Below, in pieces: positions 961 to 13,533 of a stretch of DNA of 64,000 nt. Source of the DNA: Natronorubrum halalkaliphilum (GTDB lineage: Archaea; Halobacteriota; Halobacteria; Halobacteriales; Natrialbaceae); assembly GCF_009834785.1 (NCBI RefSeq), contig NZ_WUYX01000004.1:62001-126000 (forward strand), in the 5' to 3' direction. How positions within the stretch are numbered: the first letter of the stretch is position 1; each line of letters begins with the position of its first letter. The notes below the pieces were generated by a model. That model was not told the DNA's origin. It saw nothing but the letters and a program-made list of their open reading frames with translations, and ran no database searches. The translations under genes were made by a program, and so were the position numbers.

Positions 961-1971
961 TCACTCCGCGAACGCTCGCTCGAGCAGCGTGACCAGCAGG
1001 TACGCCGCGAGTCGTTGGGTTCCCTCCGTCGAATCGTAGCGCGGGGCGACCTCCATCAGGTCGGCCGCGCCGACGGCGTCGTGCGCGCCGAGGACTTCCA
1101 TCGTCTCGAGGGCCTGCTGGGCCGAGAGCCCGCCGGGGATCGGCGTCCCGGTTCCCGGCGCGACGCTCGGATCGACGCCGTCGATGTCGAAGCTGACGTA
1201 GACGGCGTCCGTGTCCGCGGCTGCCGCCTCGATCGCGTCCGTGACGACCGAGCCGATCCCGCGCTCGTCGACCTCCCGCATCGTGTAAAGGTTCAGGCCG
1301 GTCTCGTCGGCGAACTCGAAGAAGTCGGGCGACTCGTACCCCCTGATCCCGACCTGGCTCACGTTCTCGTAGTCGACGTACGGCGAGTCCGCGATCAGCG
1401 CGGTGCTCGAGCCGTGGAAATCGGTTCCGAAGACGGGGCTCTCGGAGACCGTGTCGGTGTGGGCGTCGATCTGGACGAATCCCACGCTGTCGTGGTCCGC
1501 ACCTTCAGCGAAGCCGCGGACGGACGGGAACGTACAGTAGTGGTCGCCGCCGAGCAGGACGGGAAACGTCTGCGAGGCGACCGCCGCGACGTGGGACGTG
1601 ATGCTCTCGGCCGTCGTCTCGTGGTCCATCGGGAAGATCGGGACGTCGCCGCAGTCGGCGACGGAGAGGTCGTCGAAGTTGACGGTCTTCCCGGTCTGCA
1701 TGTTCGTCAGCCCACCCTTGTAGTCCGAGATATACGCCCACCAACCGCTGGCCTCCCGGATCGCCGCCGGGCCGTATCTGCTTCCCGGTCGGTTGGAGAC
1801 GGCACCGTCGTAGGGCGCGCCGAGGACCGCCGCGTCGACGTCCCCGACGTCGTCAACCTCCCGCTCTTCGCCCTTCAGAAACCGATTGAAGCCGGCGTAG
1901 GCGAGTTCGACGTCAGCGCCCGTCGTCGACTCGCGAAACGCCGCCGCGCGCTCCCGCTGTCGATTACGCAT
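961..1971 (-). CDS. speB: Agmatinase/guanidinobutyrase-family ureohydrolase
   Basis: This 336-residue enzyme belongs to the binuclear manganese ureohydrolase family. The metal ligands are visible: His144 in GGDHYCTFPS, Asp169-His171-Asp173 in QIDAHTDT, and Asp262-Asp264 with Asp267 in FDIDGVDPS. The family splits a guanidino compound into an amine and urea. Agmatine (giving putrescine) and 4-guanidinobutyrate (giving GABA) are the two substrates that fit the neighbours. Its start overlaps the stop of the upstream class III aminotransferase by 8 bases, so the two are cotranscribed. PanB/SpeB-type length is normal. The ATG at 1971 sits at the first well-aligned residue. The specificity is not readable from the sequence, so the speB symbol marks the family only. 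Confidence 0.88.
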   Translation of the reverse strand: MRNRQRERAAAFRESTTGADVELAYAGFNRFLKGEEREVDDVGDVDAAVLGAPYDGAVSNRPGSRYGPAAIREASGWWAYISDYKGGLTNMQTGKTVNFDDLSVADCGDVPIFPMDHETTAESITSHVAAVASQTFPVLLGGDHYCTFPSVRGFAEGADHDSVGFVQIDAHTDTVSESPVFGTDFHGSSTALIADSPYVDYENVSQVGIRGYESPDFFEFADETGLNLYTMREVDERGIGSVVTDAIEAAAADTDAVYVSFDIDGVDPSVAPGTGTPIPGGLSAQQALETMEVLGAHDAVGAADLMEVAPRYDSTEGTQRLAAYLLVTLLERAFAE

Positions 1972-3286
1972 CCGCTACCTCCGCCTCGAGGGCCTCCTCG
2001 AGCGCGTCGACGCCGGTTTCCAGTTGCTCGCGGTCGATTGAGAGCGGCGGCTGGAACCGCATGACGTTGCCGTAGTAGCCGCCGACGCCGATGACGACGC
2101 CCGCCTCGCGAAGGCGGTCGGCGACGGCCGTTGCGAGTTTTTTGTCGGGTGCCGGCGCGACGCCCATCGGCCCCGTATCGTCGGGATCGACGAGTTCGAT
2201 CCCCTGCATCAGTCCGAGCCCTCGCGCGTCGCCGACGACGTCGAACGACGACTCGAGGTCGGCCAGTCGCGAGGACAGCCACTCGCCCTGTTCGCGGGCG
2301 TTGTCGACGAGTCCGCCCTGGAGTTCGTCGATCGTGGCCAGCGCTGCGGCGCAGGCGACGGGGTTGCCGCCGAACGTCGAGAGGTGGTCGCCGGATTCAA
2401 AGCTGTCCGCGACGTCGGCCGGCGCGGTGAACGCGCCGAGTGGCATCCCGTTCGCGATCCCTTTCGCCTGCGCCATGATGTCCGGTTCGACGTCGAAGTG
2501 CTCGGTGGCGAACAGCTCGCCCGTCCGGCCGTACCCCGACTGGACCTCGTCGAGAATCAGGAGTCCGCCGTGGTCGTGGACGATCTCGCTGACTCGCTCG
2601 AGCCAGCCCTCCGGCGGGACGATAATGCCACCTTCTCCCATGATCGGTTCGACGACGACCGCGGCGATGTCGTCCGACGTGTGGGTGCCGATGATATGCT
2701 CGAGTTCGTCCGCGCAGTCGTTCGAACACGACCCGTCACACGTTCGACACCGGTAGGCGTACGGCGCCGGGGTGTGCGAGACGTCGTTGATCGTCGGCGC
2801 CATGTCCTTCTTGTACGCCTTGTTGCCCGTCAGCGCGAGACTGCCGAGCGTTCGGCCGTGGAAGGCCATCTCGAGCGCGATAACTTCCGTGTTGCCGGTG
2901 TGTTTGCGGGCGAGTTTGACCGCGCCCTCGACCGCTTCTGTCCCGGAGTTACAGAAGAACGTCTTCTGAAGGTCCCCCGGCGTGATCTCGGCGAGGCGTT
3001 CGGCGAGTTCGCCGACGGGCGCGTTCGGGTGTACGTACGAGCAGCCGTGGACGAACTCCTCGAGTTGGTCCTGGGCTGCTTCGACGACCGCCGAGTTATT
3101 GTGACCGGCGTTCGTGACCGAAATCCCTGAGAAAAGATCGAGATAGGTGTTTCCGTCGAAGTCCTCTAGCGTACAGTCCGAGGCCCGTTCGACGGGAACG
3201 TTGAGGCTCTTCCAGATCGGCATCACGTACTCGTCGTACTGCGACGTCACTGTCCGATTGTCCGTATCCGCCGTGTCGAATGTCAT
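1964..3286 (-). CDS. Class III aminotransferase (GABA/AGXT2-like)
   Basis: A 440-residue omega-amino-acid aminotransferase. Visible motifs are FCNSGTEAVEGAVKLAR near residue 111, the PLP aspartate in LILDEVQSGYGRTG near 246, and the Schiff-base Lys275 in MAQAKGIANGMPLG. A four-Cys segment (CRTCDGSCSNDC, about 180-191) matches a Cys-rich stretch common in AGXT2-like members. Family substrates are GABA, beta-alanine or ornithine-like amines. Following a ureohydrolase that could release GABA or putrescine, conversion of GABA to succinate semialdehyde is the simplest reading. I chose the ATG at 3286 over an upstream TTG because it follows the predicted transcription start and the dyad at 3300-3313. 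It heads the leftward operon with the ureohydrolase. Confidence 0.9.
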   Translation of the reverse strand: MTFDTADTDNRTVTSQYDEYVMPIWKSLNVPVERASDCTLEDFDGNTYLDLFSGISVTNAGHNNSAVVEAAQDQLEEFVHGCSYVHPNAPVGELAERLAEITPGDLQKTFFCNSGTEAVEGAVKLARKHTGNTEVIALEMAFHGRTLGSLALTGNKAYKKDMAPTINDVSHTPAPYAYRCRTCDGSCSNDCADELEHIIGTHTSDDIAAVVVEPIMGEGGIIVPPEGWLERVSEIVHDHGGLLILDEVQSGYGRTGELFATEHFDVEPDIMAQAKGIANGMPLGAFTAPADVADSFESGDHLSTFGGNPVACAAALATIDELQGGLVDNAREQGEWLSSRLADLESSFDVVGDARGLGLMQGIELVDPDDTGPMGVAPAPDKKLATAVADRLREAGVVIGVGGYYGNVMRFQPPLSIDREQLETGVDALEEALEAEVADA

Positions 3287-3299
3287 TGTTTCACAACCC

Positions 3300-3313
3300 G
3301 GCAATCAGTTGCC
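3300..3313. promoter_or_regulatory. Dyad GGCA-N6-TGCC, candidate operator
   Basis: The sequence GGCAATCAGTTGCC is a perfect inverted repeat (5-bp arms, 4-base spacer). It lies between the leftward TATA box at 3337-3345 and the ATG at 3286, where transcription should begin. The spacing matches the NrpR operator form GGAA-N6-TTCC with one substitution per half. Binding by one of the two NrpR-like proteins is inferred. Confidence 0.5.
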
Positions 3314-3336
3314 ATCCTATCGGTTGTTGGACGGGG

Positions 3337-3345: not shown

Positions 3346-3505
3346 TTACCTTCCGACGCCGATTCCCGTCGGCCTCGACGGCCGTACGCACCGAACCGAC
3401 GGTGATAGCGCGGTTCGGACGCGGCGATAGAACCGACAGCGTTCCCGTTCAGGGCGGTAATCGAAAGCAAACATTAGTGTAGCTCCTCGCCCACTCTCAG
3501 CCTGA

Positions 3506-4537
3506 ATGGCCCCGGATCTCGACAGGCGAACGTACGATATTCTCCGACTCGTCGACCGGCACGGTCCGATCGGAAGCATTCAGCTCGTCGAACTGATGCA
3601 GCGACACGGCTACGACATCAAAGACCGGACGATCAGGCTGGCCCTCTCGGAACTCGACGACCTGGGACTGACCGAAAAGGTCCCCGGACGCGGCCGCCGT
3701 CTCACGGAAAGCGGTCGCCGGGAGCTCGGTCAAGGCGACGTCAACGGTCGACTCGAGCAGATACGGGCGCGTATTGCCACCCTCACCAGCCGCGTTACGT
3801 ACGATCCGAACGAGGACGCCGGCGTCCTCATCGCCTCCGGCGTCTACCTCGCGGAGGAGGACGTCGACGATGCGCTGTCTCTCGTCTCGCGACTCGACTC
3901 GTTGCCGTTCGGTCCGCTCCCGGTTGATTTCGCAGAAAGCGCCGAGACCGAACCGGGAGACTACCGGTTGCTCGCACCCTCGAGTATCACCCTCGACGGC
4001 GTCTTGCTGGCCCACGGTATCAACGCCAAACTCACGACCGCGGGCGTGCTCCAGTACGAGCCGACGCCGAGCGAGGAAACGAGCGCGCCAGCCGATTTCG
4101 GCGGCGAGATCGTCCGCTACGTCGACATAATCAACGGCAAGGGATCGTCGATCGACGTCATTACGCTCCTGATCGAAGCCGGCCGAAGCGACGTCTCGAG
4201 CATCCTCGAAGAGGGCGAGAGCGGCCTCCTCATCGGCGACGACCGCGAGTTTCCGATCCACCGACTCGAGGAGGCGCGCGACCTCGCCATCGCGACCAGA
4301 GCGTCCCTCGGGGGTGTCATCACCGTCCAGCGGCCGCGAGAACAGGATCAGATCTCGAGCGGCGACGCCGCGTGGGCGTTCGGCTCGATAACCAACGTCG
4401 GCATGGGAGAACTGTTGCTTACGGCACTCAGCGAGTACGGACTGGCAGAATCGTGGGAGACGCTGTACGGAACGGTGCCGCGACACGATTTCGAACCCGT
4501 CCAGCGGCTCGCACGGGCTCCGGCGCTGAGCGACTAA
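3506..4537 (+). CDS. NrpR-family transcriptional repressor (copy 1)
   Basis: This 343-residue protein has the NrpR architecture: an N-terminal winged helix (about 1-80, starting DRRTYDILRLVDRHGPIGS and ending in a KVPGRGRRLTESG wing) and one NRD/DUF128 effector domain (about 95-335). The domain contains VTYDPNEDAG and the ITLDGVLLAHGI motif. In methanogens NrpR represses nitrogen-assimilation genes by binding GGAA-N6-TTCC and is released by 2-oxoglutarate. This protein has one NRD rather than two. It lies divergent from the aminotransferase operon, and its stop overlaps the convergent amidase gene by 4 bases. A paralogue lies at 9624-10640. Local control of the catabolic genes is inferred from location and the nearby dyads. 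Confidence 0.85.
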   Translation: MAPDLDRRTYDILRLVDRHGPIGSIQLVELMQRHGYDIKDRTIRLALSELDDLGLTEKVPGRGRRLTESGRRELGQGDVNGRLEQIRARIATLTSRVTYDPNEDAGVLIASGVYLAEEDVDDALSLVSRLDSLPFGPLPVDFAESAETEPGDYRLLAPSSITLDGVLLAHGINAKLTTAGVLQYEPTPSEETSAPADFGGEIVRYVDIINGKGSSIDVITLLIEAGRSDVSSILEEGESGLLIGDDREFPIHRLEEARDLAIATRASLGGVITVQRPREQDQISSGDAAWAFGSITNVGMGELLLTALSEYGLAESWETLYGTVPRHDFEPVQRLARAPALSD

Positions 4538-5382
4538 TCGAGAGCGCGGTCGAGGCCGTACACGTCGGGACGGCGATCCTCGAGCGCGTCGTCGTATGTC
4601 GTCAGCGCCTTTTCTCGGGACCGCGAGAGGTCACACGTCGCCTCGAGGACGTGGCTCCCGTCGGTCGGTGCCGGGCCCGCGACCGGGGCGCCGTTCGCGT
4701 CGAGAATAACGCTCTGTCCTTCGAACGCGACGCCGCGTTCGGTCCCTGCACGGTCCGCACAGGCGATAGCCACCTTGTTCGCGTTGGCGTGAGCCACCGC
4801 CTGATGGACGCCCATCGTCCAGCCGCCGGGCCGGTTCTCCCGTCCGCCGCTGGGATCCGGCACCCAGTTCGTCGGGACGGCGATCAGATCGGCACCGCGT
4901 CGCGCCTGTGCGATCGTGGCTTCGGGAAACCACTGATCGTTGCAGATCTGGACGCCGAGTCGGCCGAAGGGCGTCTCGAAGACGGGCAGTTCGGATCCGG
5001 CCTCGAACCATCGTTTCTCCTCGTTCCAGCGGTGGACCTTCCGATAGACGCCCTCGACGCCGCTTGGTGAGACGACGAGCGCGCTGTTGTAGTAGCTCCC
5101 GTTCGCTACTTCCGGAACGCCGCCGACGATCCAGGTGTCGGTTTCGGCGGCGACCTCGGTCCAGGCTCGAGCCGTCTCGCCGTCTCGTGGTTCCGCCATC
5201 GACTCGACTTCGGCCACCGATTCGAAGACGTACCCCGACGTGGCGAGTTCCGGAAGGACGAGGAGGTCGGCGTCCGCATGATTCTGCGCGATTTCGACGG
5301 TTCGCTCGCGGTTCCGTTCGACGGCCCCGAATTCGGGAACCGTCTGGGCAGCGACGATTCGGGCGTCGCCGGCCGCCGTCAT
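4534..5382 (-). CDS. Nitrilase-superfamily amidohydrolase
   Basis: A 282-residue carbon-nitrogen hydrolase with the Glu-Lys-Cys triad in place: Glu45 in VLPELATSGY, Lys115 in VYRKVHRWNEEK, and Cys147 in VQICNDQWFPE. It resembles N-carbamoylputrescine amidohydrolase and omega-amidases, which cut amides or carbamoyl groups from small amines and acids. In this cluster N-carbamoylputrescine or 4-guanidinobutyramide would be sensible substrates, but the sequence does not decide. Its ATG at 5382 overlaps the stop of the permease gene (ATGA), so it is the last gene of the ABC importer operon. A longer reading frame from 5544 runs through the permease gene and is rejected. The convergent NrpR gene overlaps its 3' end by 4 bases. 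Confidence 0.88.
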   Translation of the reverse strand: MTAAGDARIVAAQTVPEFGAVERNRERTVEIAQNHADADLLVLPELATSGYVFESVAEVESMAEPRDGETARAWTEVAAETDTWIVGGVPEVANGSYYNSALVVSPSGVEGVYRKVHRWNEEKRWFEAGSELPVFETPFGRLGVQICNDQWFPEATIAQARRGADLIAVPTNWVPDPSGGRENRPGGWTMGVHQAVAHANANKVAIACADRAGTERGVAFEGQSVILDANGAPVAGPAPTDGSHVLEATCDLSRSREKALTTYDDALEDRRPDVYGLDRALD

Positions 5383-7265
5383 TCCCAGATACCTCCGGAC
5401 ATGCGGTCGATCGCGGTCATCACGACGACCGTGAGACCGATGAAGACCACGCTCGCGGCCGCGATGGTCGGCGGATACGAGTACCGGAGCTGATTGAAGA
5501 TCTGGATCGGAATCGTGTCGACGAGGAACAGCGACAGCAGCCACGCGATGATGTACTCGTTCAACGAGAGGATGAACGCGAACAGCGCACCGGAGATCAC
5601 GTTCGCGCGCAACAGCGGATAGGTGATCGTCCGGATCGTCCGGATCGGCGACGCGCCGAGGTTCATCGCGGCCTCTTCGTACGTCCGATCGATCTCACTG
5701 AGCCCCTGCGTGATCAGGATGAACGGGAACGGGGCGTAGAAGATCCCGTGAGCGACGATGATGCTCGTCCGAGAACCGGCAAAGCCCATCTCGAGGAAGA
5801 ACACGAGGAAGGCGACGCCGATGATCACGGGCGGCACCAGAATCGGCAGGACGCCGAGCGTCCCGAAGATGGCGGCTCCGCGGTAGTCGAATCGGTCCAG
5901 TGCGAACGCGAGCACGCCGCCGATCGTGGTACTGAGGAGCGCCGCCGCCGCCGCGATGCCGAGGCTGTTGAGCAGCGCCCCGATCCAGGACGGATCGGTG
6001 AAGAACTCGGCGTACCACTGCATCGAGAACCCGCCGGGCGGGAACGTCAGGAACTGTTCGGGCGTGAACGAGACGGCGATAATGATGCCAAGCGGCGCGG
6101 CGATGAACACCATTACGGCCACGACATACAGCCTGAACGTCACCCAGATAACGGCTTCCCGCGTCTTCGAATCGACCGTCGTCACCAGCGAGTTCCCGGC
6201 CTGTGCGATCCGTCCCAGCGCTCGAGTGAGTCCGATACTCGAGGCCGCGTTACCGATCGCACTCCAGAGCCGGCCCGCGAGTCCGGCTCCGATTCCCGAG
6301 GACCCGCCGTCCGCGACGGAGTCGTCGTCATCGTCGTCGGTCGCGATCGCTTCGCTGCCGCCCAGACTCGCGGTCGTGACGTTCGTAAAGCGGATCATCA
6401 CCCAGAGGAACACCAGCACGACGACGATCAGCCCGATACTCATCGCGGCGCCGAACGGGTAGTTGCTCTCGCTCATGATCTGCTGTTCGATCAGGACGGG
6501 CAGCGTCCGCTCCGCCGAACTCCCAAGAAGTCGCGGGAGCACGTACGAGCCGAGCGCCAGAATGAACACGAGCGCGGTGCCGCTCATGATCCCGTTTTTC
6601 GACAGCGGGAGCGTCACCCGTCGGAACGTCCTCGCCGGTCCGGCCCCGAGGTTCTTCGAGGCCTCGAGCAGCTCACCGTCGATGGTGCGAATGCTGCTGT
6701 AGAGGGTGAGGATCATGAAGGGGACGAAAACGTAGACCATGCCGACGACCAGCCCCCAGTAGCCCGGATAGAACGACTGGGGCTCGGAGAGGATGCCGGT
6801 CGCGACGCCGACGGAACTCAAGACGCCGCCCGAGGCCAGTATGACCTGCCACGCGTAGGCCCTGATGACGTAGGTGACCCACAGCGAGGAGATGATCGTC
6901 AGCAACAGCAGGCTTCGGAGCCACGGCCGGTTCATCCGTGCGAGGTAGTACGCCATGGGGTACCCCAGCAGGAGCGAGACGACCGCGGTCACGAGCGCGA
7001 GTTCGATCGTCAGCCACAGCTGGCCGAGATAGAGACTGCTCGTGAGAAACCGGGTGTAGTTCTCGAGGGTAAAGCCCATCTCGTACTGCCCGCCGGGAAT
7101 GTTCACCCAGAAGCTGAACACGACCAGCATGCCGAGCGGGACGAGAAAGATCGCGACGAGCCAGGCCAACGGGTAGGACAGGATGTACCACTTCGCGTTC
7201 GCTTTCAGGCCCGCTCGTCCGGTCTCCGGCGCGCCGTCGTCGCTCGTGGATGTTTCAGTCGCCAT
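5379..7265 (-). CDS. Fused two-domain polyamine-type ABC permease (PotB-PotC fusion)
   Basis: At 628 residues this is twice the usual permease length and holds two binding-protein-dependent permease domains. The first (about 25-300) is PotB-like and the second (about 375-628) PotC-like. Each has its own EAA loop for docking the ATPase: ELLEASKNLGAGPARTFRR near 200 and YEEAAMNLGASPIRTIRT near 529. Between them is a linker with an acidic run (about 309-316) and a Gly/Ser-rich part. The product should form the whole membrane channel of a spermidine/putrescine-class importer. It sits directly after the ATPase gene and overlaps the amidase gene by 4 bases. The reading frame is open throughout with no internal stop, so this looks like a true fusion. 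Confidence 0.92.
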   Translation of the reverse strand: MATETSTSDDGAPETGRAGLKANAKWYILSYPLAWLVAIFLVPLGMLVVFSFWVNIPGGQYEMGFTLENYTRFLTSSLYLGQLWLTIELALVTAVVSLLLGYPMAYYLARMNRPWLRSLLLLTIISSLWVTYVIRAYAWQVILASGGVLSSVGVATGILSEPQSFYPGYWGLVVGMVYVFVPFMILTLYSSIRTIDGELLEASKNLGAGPARTFRRVTLPLSKNGIMSGTALVFILALGSYVLPRLLGSSAERTLPVLIEQQIMSESNYPFGAAMSIGLIVVVLVFLWVMIRFTNVTTASLGGSEAIATDDDDDDSVADGGSSGIGAGLAGRLWSAIGNAASSIGLTRALGRIAQAGNSLVTTVDSKTREAVIWVTFRLYVVAVMVFIAAPLGIIIAVSFTPEQFLTFPPGGFSMQWYAEFFTDPSWIGALLNSLGIAAAAALLSTTIGGVLAFALDRFDYRGAAIFGTLGVLPILVPPVIIGVAFLVFFLEMGFAGSRTSIIVAHGIFYAPFPFILITQGLSEIDRTYEEAAMNLGASPIRTIRTITYPLLRANVISGALFAFILSLNEYIIAWLLSLFLVDTIPIQIFNQLRYSYPPTIAAASVVFIGLTVVVMTAIDRMSGGIWE

Positions 7266-8360
7266 CTATGCCTCCACAATTCGACACTCTTCGGCGTCGA
7301 CGGCGACGGTCACTCGGTCGCCGGGCGACCGTTTGTCCATGCCGCTCCGGCGAACGACGACGAGTTCCCGACCGTCGGGGGTCTCGACTCGCAGTTCGAC
7401 GCTGCTGCCGAGGTGGCGTTTGAACGTAATTTCGCCCTCGAAGACGTTGACGTCGGCCGTCGCCGTGGACGTCCCGCCGTCGGCGCTCGCGCTGTCGAAC
7501 CGGAACCGTTCCGGTCGGACGATGACCGAAACGTCGGCTCCGGGTTCGACGCCGGGCCGGCTCTTCGATCGGAGTGTCAGCCCCTCGCAGTCGACGGTCG
7601 CGTACCCGTCGTCGACCGCCGTCACCGTGCCGTCGAAGATGTTCGCCGTACCGAGGAAATCCGCGACGAACCGGCTGTCCGGATCGTTGTACACTTCCTC
7701 GGGCGGTCCGACCTGTTCGAACTTTCCGTCGTTCATCACGGCGAGGCGATCGGACATCGTCAGCGCCTCCTCCTGATTGTGCGTGACGAAAACCGTCGTG
7801 ATGCCGATCTCCTGTTGAATGCGGCGCAACTCGACTTGCATCTGTTCGCGGAGCTTCTTGTCGAGACTCGCCAGCGGTTCGTCGAGCAACAGCGCCTTCG
7901 GGCGGGGGGCCAGCGCGCGGGCGAGCGCGATCCGCTGTTGCTGGCCGCCGGAGAGCTGATCCGGCGTCCGATCGGCGACGCCCGGGAGTTCGACGAGCTC
8001 GAGCATCTCCTCGACGCGCGCGTCGATCTCTTCGTCCGTGTACTCCCCCGCGGCCTCCATCCCGTAGGCGATGTTCTCGTAGATGGTCATGTGGGGGAAC
8101 AGCGCGAAGTCCTGGAACACCATCCCGGTATCGCGCTCGTACGGCGGCGCGTCCGTGACCTCGTCCTCGTCGATCCGCACCGCGCCGTCCGTCGGCATTT
8201 CGAAGCCGGCGATCGTTCGCAACGTGGTCGTCTTGCCACAGCCCGAGGGACCGACGAGCGTCACGAACTCGCCGCTTTCGATGTCGATGTCGACTCCCTT
8301 GACGGCGAGAACGCCGCCCGGATACTGCTTCGTAACGCCTTCGAGTGAAATTCCGCTCAT
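7266..8360 (-). CDS. ABC importer ATP-binding protein (PotA-like)
   Basis: A 364-residue ATPase of the spermidine/putrescine/iron importer class. Walker A is GPSGCGKT at 37-44, the signature is QLSGGQQQR at 135-143, Walker B is ALLLDEP at 156-162, and the switch His lies in VFVTHNQEEA. The last third (about 240-360) is a TOBE-type regulatory domain. It powers uptake together with the fused permease, whose start follows with no gap. The binding-protein gene ends 6 bases upstream. PotA-type length is normal. The cargo is inferred from family and context; thiamine or other small cations remain possible. Confidence 0.92.
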   Translation of the reverse strand: MSGISLEGVTKQYPGGVLAVKGVDIDIESGEFVTLVGPSGCGKTTTLRTIAGFEMPTDGAVRIDEDEVTDAPPYERDTGMVFQDFALFPHMTIYENIAYGMEAAGEYTDEEIDARVEEMLELVELPGVADRTPDQLSGGQQQRIALARALAPRPKALLLDEPLASLDKKLREQMQVELRRIQQEIGITTVFVTHNQEEALTMSDRLAVMNDGKFEQVGPPEEVYNDPDSRFVADFLGTANIFDGTVTAVDDGYATVDCEGLTLRSKSRPGVEPGADVSVIVRPERFRFDSASADGGTSTATADVNVFEGEITFKRHLGSSVELRVETPDGRELVVVRRSGMDKRSPGDRVTVAVDAEECRIVEA

Positions 8361-8366
8361 CTGTAC

Positions 8367-9482
8367 TTAACCGATGATGAACTCTTCCCAGCGTTCGCTG
8401 ACCCAGTCTTCCTCTTCGACGTAGAGGTTGTAGCTGGGGACGATCGCCTCGTCCGGCCCCGGCCCCGCGATCTCGGCGTAGAAGTCCTCGTCGATCTCGG
8501 AGTACTCGCGTTCGATCGTCGGACTCGTATAGAGGTTTTCGGCCACGCGATCCTGCACCTCGGGCCGGCTCGCGTAGTCGATGAACTGACGGGCCTCCTC
8601 CTTGAGGTCCGAGGTCTCGAGGGTCACCCAGAGCCCCGAGTCGAGGATGGAACCCTCCTCGACGAAGTTCGACTGAACCGGCGCGCCGTCGTCCTGCATG
8701 ACGCGGGTGATGTCACTGTAGAGCATCCCCGCCGGCACCTCGCCGTCGCGGAGTCGCTGCTGGAACTCGGCCTCGTTCTCGTACCAGAAGTTGGCCTGGT
8801 CCGTGACGCCTTCGAGTTCTTCGAACACCTCGAGCACACCGTCGCGGTCCTCGAGGATCTCCTGGCCGTCGAAGCGAACCTCTGCCGTGACATCGAGGAG
8901 GAACGAGTTCGACGCGTAGCCGAGCAGGCCGAGCGTATCCTCGTACTCGTCGTCCCAGAGGGCCTCCCAGCTGTCGACCGGCTCTTCGATGACATCCGTG
9001 TTCTGGACGAGGTTGATGTACCACGACAGGGCTCCGATGCTCGAGATGCCGCCCTCGGCCTCCCCGACGAGGTCGTCGCTGATGTACTCGAGGTTCTCGA
9101 AGTCGTCCTCGTCCCAGATGTGCCACAGGTCGGAGTTGAGCCCCTGCATGACACCGGTCTGGGCCATGATGGCGACGTCGACGGGCGCTTCGCCCGCCCC
9201 GACGGCGTTCTCGTACTGCGTGAGCGCCTCTTCGGAGGTCGGTTGCGCTTCCGACTCGACGTCGATGTCGAGCTCCTCGCTGAACGGCTCGAACAGTTCG
9301 TCGTCCATGACGTCCTGAAACACGCCGCCGTAGACGGCGACGGTCAGCGTGTCGTCGCCGTCCCCCAGCACGTCCTCGACCGTCCCCGTACAGCCCGCGA
9401 GGCCGGCGAGCGCGACAGCGCTACCACCGGCCGCAGTCGTTCGTAGAAATTCCCGCCGTCCGTGAGTGTGTGGTCCTGGCAT
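8367..9482 (-). CDS. Tat lipoprotein, polyamine-type ABC substrate-binding protein
   Basis: A 371-residue extracytoplasmic binding protein. It begins with a twin-arginine signal (GRREFLRTTAAGG) and a lipobox ending at Cys31 (LAGLAGC), so it should be a lipid-anchored Tat substrate. The mature part reads like PotD/PotF-class proteins (TLTVAVYGGVFQDVMDDELF near 44, then a mixed alpha/beta fold). Substrate contacts cannot be assigned with confidence. It heads the leftward importer operon: binding protein, ATPase, fused permease, amidase. A strong TATA box lies at 9517-9528, and a GGCA-N6-TGCC dyad overlaps the start codon. Confidence 0.9.
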   Translation of the reverse strand: MPGPHTHGRREFLRTTAAGGSAVALAGLAGCTGTVEDVLGDGDDTLTVAVYGGVFQDVMDDELFEPFSEELDIDVESEAQPTSEEALTQYENAVGAGEAPVDVAIMAQTGVMQGLNSDLWHIWDEDDFENLEYISDDLVGEAEGGISSIGALSWYINLVQNTDVIEEPVDSWEALWDDEYEDTLGLLGYASNSFLLDVTAEVRFDGQEILEDRDGVLEVFEELEGVTDQANFWYENEAEFQQRLRDGEVPAGMLYSDITRVMQDDGAPVQSNFVEEGSILDSGLWVTLETSDLKEEARQFIDYASRPEVQDRVAENLYTSPTIEREYSEIDEDFYAEIAGPGPDEAIVPSYNLYVEEEDWVSERWEEFIIG

Positions 9483-9491
9483 ACTATTGCC
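9478..9491. promoter_or_regulatory. Dyad GGCA-N6-TGCC over the start of the importer operon
   Basis: GGCATACTATTGCC overlaps the ATG of the binding-protein gene (9480-9482) and lies about 38 bases downstream of the TATA box. It shares spacing and half-sites with the dyad at 3300-3313. On the coding strand both sites begin GGCAA. A shared repressor is inferred. Confidence 0.45.
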
Positions 9492-9516
9492 ACCGTACCA
9501 CTCTATCCCCGTTTCC

Positions 9517-9623: not shown

Positions 9624-10640
9624 CTATTTTTTCTTGACAACCGACGAAAAATCGGAACGTGGCTGTACCCTCTCGAGGGTCTCCCACTCGAGTGCGATCC
9701 CCGACTCGACGCAGTGGGAGATAACGCACTCGGCGGCTCCGGCGAAGGTGAGCGACGCGAACGCCCAGCCCGGCGTCCCCCACGGGAACGGTCCCGGTTC
9801 TCGCGGGCGGCGGAGATCGAGGACGCCACCCAGGGTATCGCGAGTCGAGACCGCGAGCTCTCGAGCGGTGTCGTAGTGGGCCAGTGGAAACTCCCGATTA
9901 TCCGCGACCAGAAGCCCGGTCTCTCCGGCGAGCGCGCTCGAAACGTCGGTCTGTCTGGCCTCGATCAGCAGCGATACCAGATCGACCGTCGCCCGTTCGT
10001 CGCCGATGACGTCGGTGAACCGGCGGATCGCCCCGCCGTGGACCGCCGGTTCGGGATCGTCGTAAGGGACGGTGTCCGGATCGGGATGGTACTCCACGAC
10101 GCCGATGGTGTCGGGATGGCTCTCGATCCCGTGGGACAGTAACACGCCGTCGATCGTCACGCTCGAGGGGACCGCGACCTCGAGACAGTCGGTGCCGTTC
10201 CGTTCGACGGGTTCGATCGACGCGACGATCGGTCCGAGCGGCGAGTCGTCGATCGCTTTCAGGCCCGCCTCGAGTGTCGCTCTGTCCTCCGTCGCGACGA
10301 GGACGGTTCCGACGACGACGTCGCCGGCGTCGGTCGCCGGATCGTAGGTCACCTGACTCGTCAGATCCGCCAGCCGCTCTCTGACCTGTTCGACCCGACC
10401 GCTGACGCCCCCTCGCTCGAGTTCCGCGCGGCCGTCCGCCGTGAGTCGTCGGCCCTTGCCGCCGACCTTCTCGGTCAGGCCAGATTCGTCGAGGTCGGCG
10501 AGCGTGAGCCGAACCGTCCGCTCGGTGATCGAGTAGCCACGCTCTCGAAGGTGTTCCGTAAGGTGGACGCTACCGATCGGTTCGTGTTCGGCCAGCAGCC
10601 GGAGGATGTCGTACGTCCGCCGGTCGGGATCGCTCGTCAT
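9624..10640 (-). CDS. NrpR-family transcriptional repressor (copy 2)
   Basis: A 338-residue paralogue of the regulator at 3506-4537, with the same order of a winged helix (about 1-80; DRRTYDILRLLAEHEPIGS at the start) and one NRD/DUF128 domain (about 95-330; VPSSVTIDGVLLSHGI, then VVEYHPDPD). It ends in a Lys run. NrpR proteins repress nitrogen genes and sense 2-oxoglutarate; the effector here is unknown. Only 7 bases separate it from the upstream aminotransferase gene, so it is probably expressed from that gene's promoter. That promoter carries a textbook GGAA-N6-TTCC dyad, which would give feedback control. Autoregulation is inference. Confidence 0.85.
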   Translation of the reverse strand: MTSDPDRRTYDILRLLAEHEPIGSVHLTEHLRERGYSITERTVRLTLADLDESGLTEKVGGKGRRLTADGRAELERGGVSGRVEQVRERLADLTSQVTYDPATDAGDVVVGTVLVATEDRATLEAGLKAIDDSPLGPIVASIEPVERNGTDCLEVAVPSSVTIDGVLLSHGIESHPDTIGVVEYHPDPDTVPYDDPEPAVHGGAIRRFTDVIGDERATVDLVSLLIEARQTDVSSALAGETGLLVADNREFPLAHYDTARELAVSTRDTLGGVLDLRRPREPGPFPWGTPGWAFASLTFAGAAECVISHCVESGIALEWETLERVQPRSDFSSVVKKK

Positions 10641-10647
10641 CGTTCGA

Positions 10648-12051
10648 CTACTGCTGGGCGGCGGTTAAGTGGGTGGCGAGATCCGCGAACGCGTCGACGT
10701 GGGCGTCGATCTCCTCGGCGGTGTGCTGGACGCTTACCGTCCACTGCTGGGACGCGTCGTGGGGATGGGGAATAACGCCCCTGTTTACCATCCCGAACCA
10801 GTAGGCCTCGTGGAACTCTTCGTCGACGTGGCCCCAGTCGCGGAACGTCCGAATCGGCTCGTCCGTGAAGTGGACCATTCCCTGAGAGCCGACGCTCTTT
10901 ACCGTGGCCTCGAGTCCGGTGTCCGCGATGACGTCGCGGTAGCCGTCCGCGAGGCGATCGGCGAGGGTCGTGACGTGGTCGTAGGCGTCCTCGGTGAGGA
11001 TCTCTCGCAACGTCACGCCGACGGCCCGCAACGCGAGCGGGTTCCCGTTGTACGTGCCGTAGTGGGCCGCGCCGGTCGCGACGCCCTCGTTCAGGTCGGC
11101 CGCGATGCAGTCCATGATCTCGCGGCGACCGCCGAACGCGCCGACGGGGTAGCCGCCGCCGATCGCTTTCGCCAGCGCGACGAGATCAGGTTGGACGCCG
11201 TAGTACTCCGCTCCGCCGCCGGGAGCCAGTTTGACGCCGGTCTTTACCTCGTCGAAGATCAGGACGACGTTGTACTCGTCGGCGAGTTCCCGCAGTCGCT
11301 CGAGGAACCCGTCTTCGGGTTCGACCAGCCCGAGATTGAGACAGGCCGGTTCGACGAGCACGGCGGCGACCTCGGCTCCGTGATCACGAAGCAACCGCTC
11401 GACGCTCTCGGCGTCGTTGTACTGCGCCAGGAGGATGTCCTCTGGCACTGAGTCCGGGACACCGCGGGACTCCCTGACCGGACGCGGATCGCGTTCGGGA
11501 CCCGCCTGCTCGAGCGGCGGCATCTTGCTCACCAGCGCCGGATCGTGCGCGCCGTGATAGGCGCCTTCCATTCGAATGATCTTTTCGCGGCCGGTGTACG
11601 CCCGCGCGAGACGCGTCGCGTGCATGATCGACTCGGTGCCGCTGTTGGTGAATCGAACCTGCTCGATGGCGTCCCAGCGGTCGATCAACGGCCGGGCCGC
11701 AAACTCGATGAGATCGGTCGGTCGCGTGTAGAGCGTTCCGCGCTCGATCTGGTCGACGGCGGCTTCTTCCAGGGTCGGATGGGTGTGTCCGACGAGTTGG
11801 GTCCCGTTGTTCAACGCGAAGTCGAGGTACTCGTTGCCGTCCACGTCGTAGATCGAGCCCCCCTCCGCTCGCGCCGCGTGGACCGGGTAGGGGTCGTAGG
11901 CTCGGAACGTACTGCAGACGCCGGCCGGCACGAGTTCTCGGAGGTCCTCGGCCATCGCCGCCGACTCCGGCGTTCGTTCCTCGTAGCGCTCGCACTCGGC
12001 CGCTAGCAGTTCCTCGGTCGACGCGTCGCGAATCGGATTCGTATCTGACAT
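10648..12051 (-). CDS. Class III aminotransferase, glutamate-1-semialdehyde aminomutase-like
   Basis: A 467-residue PLP enzyme closest in layout to GSA aminomutases and related amine transaminases. Motifs: RFTNSGTESIMHATRLAR near 133, MEGAYHGAHD near 161, the cofactor Asp in LIFDEVKTG near 267, and Schiff-base Lys295 in VALAKAIGGGYPVGAFGG. It is longer than typical HemL and lies among catabolic genes, so heme synthesis is unlikely; an amine or amino-acid aminotransferase is more probable. It starts 8 bases from a perfect GGAA-N6-TTCC dyad and is followed at 7 bases by the second NrpR-like gene. The ATG at 12051 follows the predicted transcription start closely. Confidence 0.85.
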   Translation of the reverse strand: MSDTNPIRDASTEELLAAECERYEERTPESAAMAEDLRELVPAGVCSTFRAYDPYPVHAARAEGGSIYDVDGNEYLDFALNNGTQLVGHTHPTLEEAAVDQIERGTLYTRPTDLIEFAARPLIDRWDAIEQVRFTNSGTESIMHATRLARAYTGREKIIRMEGAYHGAHDPALVSKMPPLEQAGPERDPRPVRESRGVPDSVPEDILLAQYNDAESVERLLRDHGAEVAAVLVEPACLNLGLVEPEDGFLERLRELADEYNVVLIFDEVKTGVKLAPGGGAEYYGVQPDLVALAKAIGGGYPVGAFGGRREIMDCIAADLNEGVATGAAHYGTYNGNPLALRAVGVTLREILTEDAYDHVTTLADRLADGYRDVIADTGLEATVKSVGSQGMVHFTDEPIRTFRDWGHVDEEFHEAYWFGMVNRGVIPHPHDASQQWTVSVQHTAEEIDAHVDAFADLATHLTAAQQ

Positions 12052-12059
12052 TGCATCAC

Positions 12060-12077
12060 CCGGAAGTGAACTTCCGG
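12060..12077. promoter_or_regulatory. NrpR-type operator CCGGAAGT-GA-ACTTCCGG
   Basis: A perfect 18-base palindrome contains GGAA-N6-TTCC, the operator known for NrpR in Methanococcus. Its centre lies about 40 bases downstream of the TATA-like element at 12104-12112 and just before the ATG at 12051. The promoter drives the aminotransferase and the second NrpR-like gene. Confidence 0.7.
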
Positions 12078-12103: not shown

Positions 12104-12112
12104 GTAAATAAC
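12104..12112 (-). promoter_or_regulatory. TATA-like element of the aminotransferase/NrpR operon
   Basis: The minus strand reads GTTATTTAC with the purine-rich CGAGGAATA before it, which could be a BRE. The predicted start of transcription falls in the palindrome at 12060-12077. Confidence 0.4.
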
Positions 12113-12231: not shown

Positions 12232-12247
12232 CGGAAGTTCTATTCCG
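12232..12247. promoter_or_regulatory. Second GGAA-N6-TTCC dyad
   Basis: CGGAA-GTTCTA-TTCCG has 5-bp arms around a 6-base spacer. It lies about 170 bases from the first operator and 174 bases before the HDAC-like gene. It could act with the first site or control the rightward gene. Confidence 0.5.
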
Positions 12248-12420: not shown

Positions 12421-13533
12421 ATGGCATCCGCGACCGCGTTCTGGGACGAGAGCTTCCTCGAGCACGTCCCGCCCGCCGGCGAGGGCGAAGCCGAGTGGAC
12501 GGGGCGTCTCGCAGTCGAGCAGCCGCATCCGGACCGACCGGAGCGGCTCCGAAACGTTCGTTCGATCGTTCGTCACGAACTGGCCGACCGCGTCCGGTGG
12601 ACACAGGCTCCGGAGATAACCGACGAAGAACTTCATCGCGTGCACGATCCGGACTACGTGCGGGAGTTTCGAGCGTTCTGTGACTCCGGCGGCGGCCGAA
12701 TTACCGGCGGAACCGGGGCGAACGAAGCCTCGTACCGCGCCGCCCGCCACGCCGCCGGCGGGGCCGCCGCTGCGGCGACTCACGCGCTCGAGCACGGACT
12801 CGAGGATGTTCCCTACGCGGCCGTTCGACCGAGCGGCCACCACGCCCAACCCGCACAGGCCGACGGCTTCTGTTTCTTCAACAACGCCGCCGTCGCGGCC
12901 GAGCGAGCGCTTGCGGACGACCGCGTCGAGCGCGTCTGTATCCTCGACTGGGACGTCCACCACGGAAACGGGACCCAGGAGGTCTTTTACGGCCGGGACG
13001 ACGTGCTGACGATCAGCCTCCACAACGACCACTGGTCGTGGAACCCCGACGCGCACCCGCAGACGGGCGACGTGGACGAACGCGGCACGGGGCCCGGGGA
13101 AGGGTACAACCTGAACGTGCCCCTCCCGCCGGGAACGGGCGACGACGGCTACGCCGAAGCGTTCGACCGACTCGTCGAGCCCGTTATCGAGCAGTACGCT
13201 CCCGATCTGCTCGTCGTCAGCGCGGGCGGTGACGCCGGAACCGTCGATCCGCTCGGCCGGAACGTCGTCACGAAATCGGGGTTCGAATCGCTCGGCGCTC
13301 GCGCCCGCGACATCGCGGCGACCTCGGCGTCCGGACGTCTCGTCCTGCTCCAGGAGGGGGGCTACCACCCGAGCCACCTTGCCTACGCGATGCTCGGGAC
13401 GCTCGAGGGCGTCCTGGGTATCGACTCCGAAATCGACGACCCGTTCGCGTGGCTCGACGAAGATTTCGAGTCGGCGGCCGACCGGATCGCCGAGATACGC
13501 GAGTACTACGCCGACTGGTGGACGCTCGAGTAA
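12421..13533 (+). CDS. Histone deacetylase/acetylpolyamine amidohydrolase-family enzyme
   Basis: A 370-residue zinc amidohydrolase of the HDAC superfamily. The catalytic His pair is His140-His141 in PSGHHAQPAQ, and zinc ligands are Asp178 and His180 in LDWDVHHGNGT and Asp271 in SAGGDAGTVDP. FFNNAA and QEGGYHP are also family motifs. In prokaryotes the family includes acetylpolyamine amidohydrolases and acetoin-utilisation AcuC. The neighbouring polyamine-type importer and aminotransferases favour removal of acetyl groups from acetylated amines, although action on acetyl-lysine proteins cannot be excluded. I chose the ATG at 12421 over one 42 bases upstream because conserved sequence begins there and a TATA-like GGTTATTCGG lies just before it. 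Confidence 0.85.
   Translation: MASATAFWDESFLEHVPPAGEGEAEWTGRLAVEQPHPDRPERLRNVRSIVRHELADRVRWTQAPEITDEELHRVHDPDYVREFRAFCDSGGGRITGGTGANEASYRAARHAAGGAAAAATHALEHGLEDVPYAAVRPSGHHAQPAQADGFCFFNNAAVAAERALADDRVERVCILDWDVHHGNGTQEVFYGRDDVLTISLHNDHWSWNPDAHPQTGDVDERGTGPGEGYNLNVPLPPGTGDDGYAEAFDRLVEPVIEQYAPDLLVVSAGGDAGTVDPLGRNVVTKSGFESLGARARDIAATSASGRLVLLQEGGYHPSHLAYAMLGTLEGVLGIDSEIDDPFAWLDEDFESAADRIAEIREYYADWWTLE

Follow-up and report, generated by a model that had tools for sequence, protein, structure and literature searches.

The NrpR operator of Methanococcus maripaludis, GGAAN6TTCC, is found at nif, glnA and glnK-amtB (PMC2723118). Methanogens possess both kinds of NrpR protein, the HTH-bearing form and the NRD-only NrpRII, with an NrpRI/NrpRII pair present in the Methanosarcinales (M. 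mazei). According to a 2019 paper dealing with Haloferax volcanii, haloarchaea do not conserve a master regulator of the NrpR type (PMC6801745), which agrees with the patchy occurrence of NrpR that we see across this group (33/341 genomes). Where NrpR does occur, it almost always lies beside a ureohydrolase in the loci sampled; in the literature that we searched, we found no operator assignment for a haloarchaeal NrpR homologue.

Here, we describe a 64,000-nucleotide stretch of DNA from Natronorubrum halalkaliphilum (‘the window’; GCF_009834785.1, contig NZ_WUYX01000004.1, positions 62,001–126,000 of the forward strand), in which a dyad at 12060–12077 is, judging from its sequence and context, very probably the operator site of NrpR1, an NrpR-family protein encoded within the same gene cluster. 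The half-site, the N6 spacing, the winged helix, the NRD effector domain and the promoter-proximal location of the operator are all features shared with NrpR of M. maripaludis; unlike that system, the site here belongs to a single, local operon of polyamine type in which the regulator gene itself lies, the arm is extended to CCGGAA, the NRD has diverged, and glnA and amt lack the dyad. NrpR1 and its paralogue NrpR2 resemble the NrpRI of Methanosarcinales, in that each is built from an HTH and one NRD (∼340 amino acids), but this genome has no NRD-only NrpRII, and haloarchaeal NRDs score more weakly against the domain model (∼20–100 bits, in one piece or two, versus 240–337 bits in methanogens). 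There is also a weak winged-helix similarity to repressors of the CggR/SorC type (PF21715, below cut-off; 7oyk), but the effector domain of NrpR1 differs and the protein is not a member of that group.

The gene cluster and its two NrpR paralogues

The features of the cluster, in window coordinates, are:

961–1971, minus strand: agmatinase-type ureohydrolase (PF00491)
1964–3286, minus strand: AT2, class III (GABA/putrescine-type) aminotransferase (PF00202; PDB relatives), with its start set at the ATG at 3286
3299–3314: predicted NrpR2-type operator, CGGCA-N6-TGCCA
3506–4537, plus strand: NrpR2, second NrpR-family regulator (PF08461, PF01995)
4534–5382, minus strand: carbon-nitrogen hydrolase, nitrilase/omega-amidase-like (PF00795)
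5379–7265, minus strand: fused PotB/PotC-like permease (PF00528 twice; NCBIfam PotB/PotC matches)
7266–8360, minus strand: PotA-like ABC ATPase (PF00005, TOBE_2; TIGR01187 potA above cut-off)
8367–9482, minus strand: PotD-like solute-binding protein (PF13416; relatives are spermidine/putrescine binding proteins)
9477–9492: predicted NrpR2-type operator over the potD start codon, TGGCA-N6-TGCCA
9624–10640, minus strand: NrpR1, HTH_12 plus one NRD1_2 domain (PF08461, PF01995), predicted repressor for 12060–12077
10648–12051, minus strand: AT1, class III aminotransferase, glutamate-1-semialdehyde-aminomutase/GntE-like (PF00202; PDB relatives), first gene of the operon
12060–12077: predicted NrpR1 operator, CCGGAAGT-GA-ACTTCCGG, with the core CGGAA-N6-TTCCG at 12061–12076
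12105–12111, minus strand: TTATTTA, a TATA-like box for AT1-nrpR1, part of a TATA-like block in aligned orthologues
12232–12247: further copy of the CGGAA-N6-TTCCG dyad between AT1 and the histone-deacetylase (HDAC)-family gene, ∼174 bases before the latter
12421–13533, plus strand: HDAC-family amidohydrolase, divergent neighbour (PF00850)

Taken together, this gene content fits a role in the uptake and breakdown of polyamines or guanidino-compounds. The chains in the PDB nearest to the ureohydrolase are annotated ‘agmatinase 2’ (9fek, 7esr and 7oi1), and we take these to be guanidine hydrolases; a guanidinobutyrase (3nio) and agmatinase chains are nearly as close. AT1 does not reach the cut-off of any of its best NCBIfam models, its score against that for the guanitoxin transaminase GntE being nearly as high as against those for glutamate-1-semialdehyde aminomutase, and it probably represents an undescribed aminotransferase subfamily. 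AT1 and nrpR1 lie on the same strand, separated by just 7 bases. The promoter alignment places a separate TATA-like box ahead of potD, and the transcript of the transporter genes is therefore probably distinct from that of AT1-nrpR1. The NrpR2 gene is convergent with the nitrilase gene and divergent from AT2-ureohydrolase.

The genome encodes exactly two PF01995 proteins, NrpR1 and NrpR2, both in the window, both with an HTH and 48% identical to each other. NrpR1 carries the two domains looked for in a member of the NrpR family, PF08461 (1.4e-14) and PF01995 (1.7e-21), both above cut-off, and its orthologues form a single clade with 100/100 support. The sole significant fold match in the PDB for its AlphaFold model (mean pLDDT 85) is 3nek (MJ0159; E 5.5e-12). 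Residues invariant in methanogen NrpRI are retained in the winged helix, with an ER-x-VR motif common to NrpR1 (ITERTVR) and the methanogen proteins (IGERAVR); the recognition helix begins with ITER in NrpR1 versus IKDR or IKGR in NrpR2 and most group-B proteins. The NRD, by comparison, is altered at positions that methanogens keep invariant or almost so (N111, C159, P221, N247 and G277; for example N111 to G/S, C159 to S and N247 to D), which is at most suggestive evidence against derepression by 2-oxoglutarate.

The CGGAA dyad ahead of AT1

The sequence at 12060–12077 reads CCGGAAGTGAACTTCCGG. An earlier annotation of this DNA had called it a perfect 18-base palindrome: the dyad itself stands but its perfection does not, the reverse complement being mismatched at the two central bases, such that two 8-base arms flank a GA spacer. 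The same annotation was correct in placing GGAA-N6-TTCC inside the dyad, in positioning it ∼40 bases (centre to centre) downstream of a TATA-like element and in seeing it at the head of an operon that encodes an NrpR-family protein. An 8+8 dyad of this type, with up to two mismatches allowed, is expected 0.04 times per 64 kb window; the bare GGAA-N6-TTCC motif is commoner, with 4 copies in the window against 1.1 expected.

Reading towards AT1, the order is TATA-like box, dyad, ATG, and in aligned orthologous promoters the TATA-like block lies ∼20 to 37 bases ahead of the dyad. These distances can be read directly from the sequence; on the usual archaeal spacing between TATA box and start site, the dyad would occupy transcript positions of about +5 to +22.

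Orthologous loci were gathered from named genomes and by whole-genome searches (L018–L025 and L029 mostly repeat the genomes behind L071–L083, and were counted once). The initial annotation had named loss of the dyad upstream of orthologues as a ground for abandoning the operator; CGGAA-N6-TTCCG lies ahead of AT1 in 17/17 loci where NrpR1 adjoins it, a count that overstates independence, as the three families represented (f1, f2 and f4) are all haloarchaeal and some loci are close relatives. With the dyad as the anchor of the alignment, all 17 promoters agree at each of the ten arm positions and 16 at the outer C and G, whilst the intervening N6 drifts, with no position conserved in more than 12. 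When every possible 5-base dyad with a gap of 0–20 is scanned for without guidance, CGGAA-6-TTCCG ranks first, in 12/12 non-redundant promoters against 0.012 expected from shuffles, although the scanned windows were anchored on the sites, thereby favouring inclusion. As judged by sequence, the family operator GGAA-N6-TTCC is thus present in the putatively controlled promoter at each of the 17 loci.

The dyad is co-inherited with NrpR1. Ten AT1 paralogues (51–58% identical) without an adjacent NrpR1 have no NrpR-type dyad within ∼300 bases upstream, ruling out that the presence of AT1 alone accounts for it. The CGGAA dyad is also absent from the promoters of loci with only NrpR2 or other (group-B) NrpR paralogues; in two of these (L100 and L101) copies do occur, but fall inside the aminotransferase gene.

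A related dyad class at NrpR2-type promoters

A single dyad common to all NrpR loci was ruled out, as the paralogue loci carry a different one. Within the promoters lying between NrpR2 (or a single group-B NrpR) and divergent ureohydrolase/aminotransferase genes, 42/44 contain (T/C)GG(A/C/T)A-N6-T(A/G/T)CC(A/G), compared with 0.4 expected and a maximum of 3 in 300 shuffles; the form can be summarised as (T/C)GG(C/A)A-N6-T(G/T)CCA. In clusters with two regulators it is nearly always GGCA-N6-TGCC, the exception being L071 with TGGAA-N6-TGCCA. These homologues beside agmatinase-type genes belong to the same family as NrpR1 and likewise have a GGNA-N6-TNCC site over the adjacent promoter, but their half-sites are GGCA or mixed GGAA/GGCA with T/C outside, and they usually lack the AT1 operon.

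Neither NrpR2 nor this other class of dyad featured in the earlier annotation, and two members of the class are found in the window. The dyad at 3299–3314 lies 12 bases ahead of the AT2 ATG and behind a TATA-like TTTTATG. The second, the only copy of its sequence in the 4.56 Mb genome, covers the potD start codon, and does so at an equal position in every cluster compared; its right arm corresponds to the Met-Pro codons but its left arm does not.

The GGNA-N6-TNCC frame is common to both dyad classes and to the M. maripaludis operator, and because several paralogue lineages show it, we regard the comparison as strong evidence for NrpR-family proteins as the probable binders. We infer which dyad goes with which paralogue from their co-occurrence. 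Nine loci with a group-B NrpR (L085, L086, L089, L090, L098, L100–L102 and L104) have, besides the dyad of the divergent promoter, a second GGNA-N6-TNCC dyad ∼60–86 bases before the start of the NrpR gene, which suggests self-control there too. Separately, a conserved block resembling AAACCTTGGTG is located ∼40–50 bases ahead of the NrpR2 start in a number of loci (L072, L073, L075–L079, L081, L084, L095 and L106), with an imperfect version, AAACATTAGTG, at 3440–3470 in the window; it is possibly the promoter of NrpR2 or the site of another protein.

Proposed local control and the competing explanations

An NrpR-type operator with self-control, as initially annotated, is by far the best reading of 12060–12077, the half-site and spacing of M. 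maripaludis having been kept at every NrpR1 locus. In the model that we favour (probability roughly 0.8), NrpR1 controls its own AT1 operon and NrpR2 acts at the GGCA dyads, for local repression of a polyamine/guanidino cluster. NrpR1, as an NrpRI-type repressor with a winged helix and one NRD effector domain, would bind as a dimer to the pair of CGGAA half-sites, which are spaced by one turn and would cover the region where transcription of AT1-nrpR1 begins; it would thereby block initiation and place its own operon under its own control, until an effector frees it from the DNA. NrpR2 would act likewise at the front of the AT2-ureohydrolase operon and at the potD start, such that the two proteins jointly keep the uptake and breakdown cluster off until the effector is present.

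Could NrpR1 instead be a 2-oxoglutarate-sensing global nitrogen repressor, as in methanogens, with this operon as one of several targets? The M. maripaludis-like half-site and spacing, the retained NRD fold (the 3nek match) and a cluster that yields nitrogen would all suit such a circuit; the distribution of the motif does not. Among the 15 genomes of the family that have NrpR1, strict CCGGAA-N6-TTCCGG occurs 20 times; 14 copies sit at the AT1 promoter, and the others amount to 0.4 per genome versus 0.68 (75 in 110 genomes) where NrpR1 is lacking, as counted by hand. Since the remaining copies are no more frequent than in genomes without NrpR1, the strict-motif regulon amounts to one promoter rather than the several targets of a global regulator. 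The looser CGGAA dyad has 14 copies in this genome, 8 of them inside genes; those outside clear genes (L002, L007 and the site at 1501 in L009) are found close to a Cdc6-type ATPase, DUF7111/DUF3267 and a glyoxalase-family gene, and we found no nitrogen theme near these few. Nor did we find, in this genome, an NrpR-type dyad near the start of either of the two glnA promoters or of the one amt promoter, or an NRD-only NrpRII, as the Methanosarcinales system would have, in the PF01995 search. Together with the patchiness of NrpR in haloarchaea and the altered effector positions, this evidence leaves the earlier suggestion that methanogen nitrogen-repressor logic operates here without support, and we consider the global circuit quite unlikely. 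For the same reasons (glnA/amt, patchiness, no NrpRII, diverged NRD), we favour local repression, putatively relieved by a pathway compound, over 2-oxoglutarate sensing.

Occupation of the dyad by NrpR2, or by either paralogue without distinction, the two being redundant or forming heterodimers, would be in keeping with the similarity of their wHTH domains and with a GGNA-N6-TNCC frame that fits both dyad classes; we judge it unlikely, as in two-gene clusters the classes keep distinct arms (CGGAA versus GGCA), L095–L097, where the stretch read includes NrpR2 but not NrpR1, lack the CGGAA dyad, and the start of the recognition helix is paralogue-specific. Palindromes are common operators, and the site might belong to a regulator outside this family, such as one of the Lrp/AsnC or TrmB type; equally, lying downstream of the predicted start, the dyad would be transcribed in most loci and could form a leader RNA hairpin. 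Both ideas are made very improbable by its exact co-inheritance with NrpR1, by the agreement of the half-site with the published operator of the family and by the equal architecture at NrpR-type paralogue promoters; the hairpin also by L099 and L106, in which the TATA box is ∼10 bases nearer, thus placing the dyad on the start site with no full leader hairpin. Although a bare GGAA-N6-TTCC is to be expected about once per window, a chance dyad kept by recent common descent is excluded for practical purposes by arms that are invariant across three families while the N6, like most of the promoter, has diverged, and by the low expectation of the unguided scan.

The proposed self-control by NrpR1, alongside control of the GGCA dyads by NrpR2, gives both NrpR paralogues a predicted operator that is sharp and testable, and extends the GGNA-N6-TNCC code to promoters of a second euryarchaeal class. 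It suggests that the family of an archaeal global nitrogen switch has been reused for the control of a local pathway. A broader scenario, to which we give even odds, is that haloarchaeal NrpR left global nitrogen control and the paralogues split, acquiring separate operator codes (CGGAA and GGCA, both on the N6 frame) as well as a new effector (probably a polyamine/guanidino metabolite), with the two sister repressors co-regulating one cluster. NrpR1 and NrpR2 would then form a natural pair in which to study the separation of sites between repressor paralogues.

The second CGGAA-N6-TTCCG dyad of the intergenic region (12232–12247) is a possible second operator, with such an upstream copy seen in only 4/17 NrpR1 loci (the window, L071, L072 and L074). 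The divergent HDAC-family gene is a possible further target of regulation; acetylpolyamine amidohydrolases are among the solved relatives of its product.
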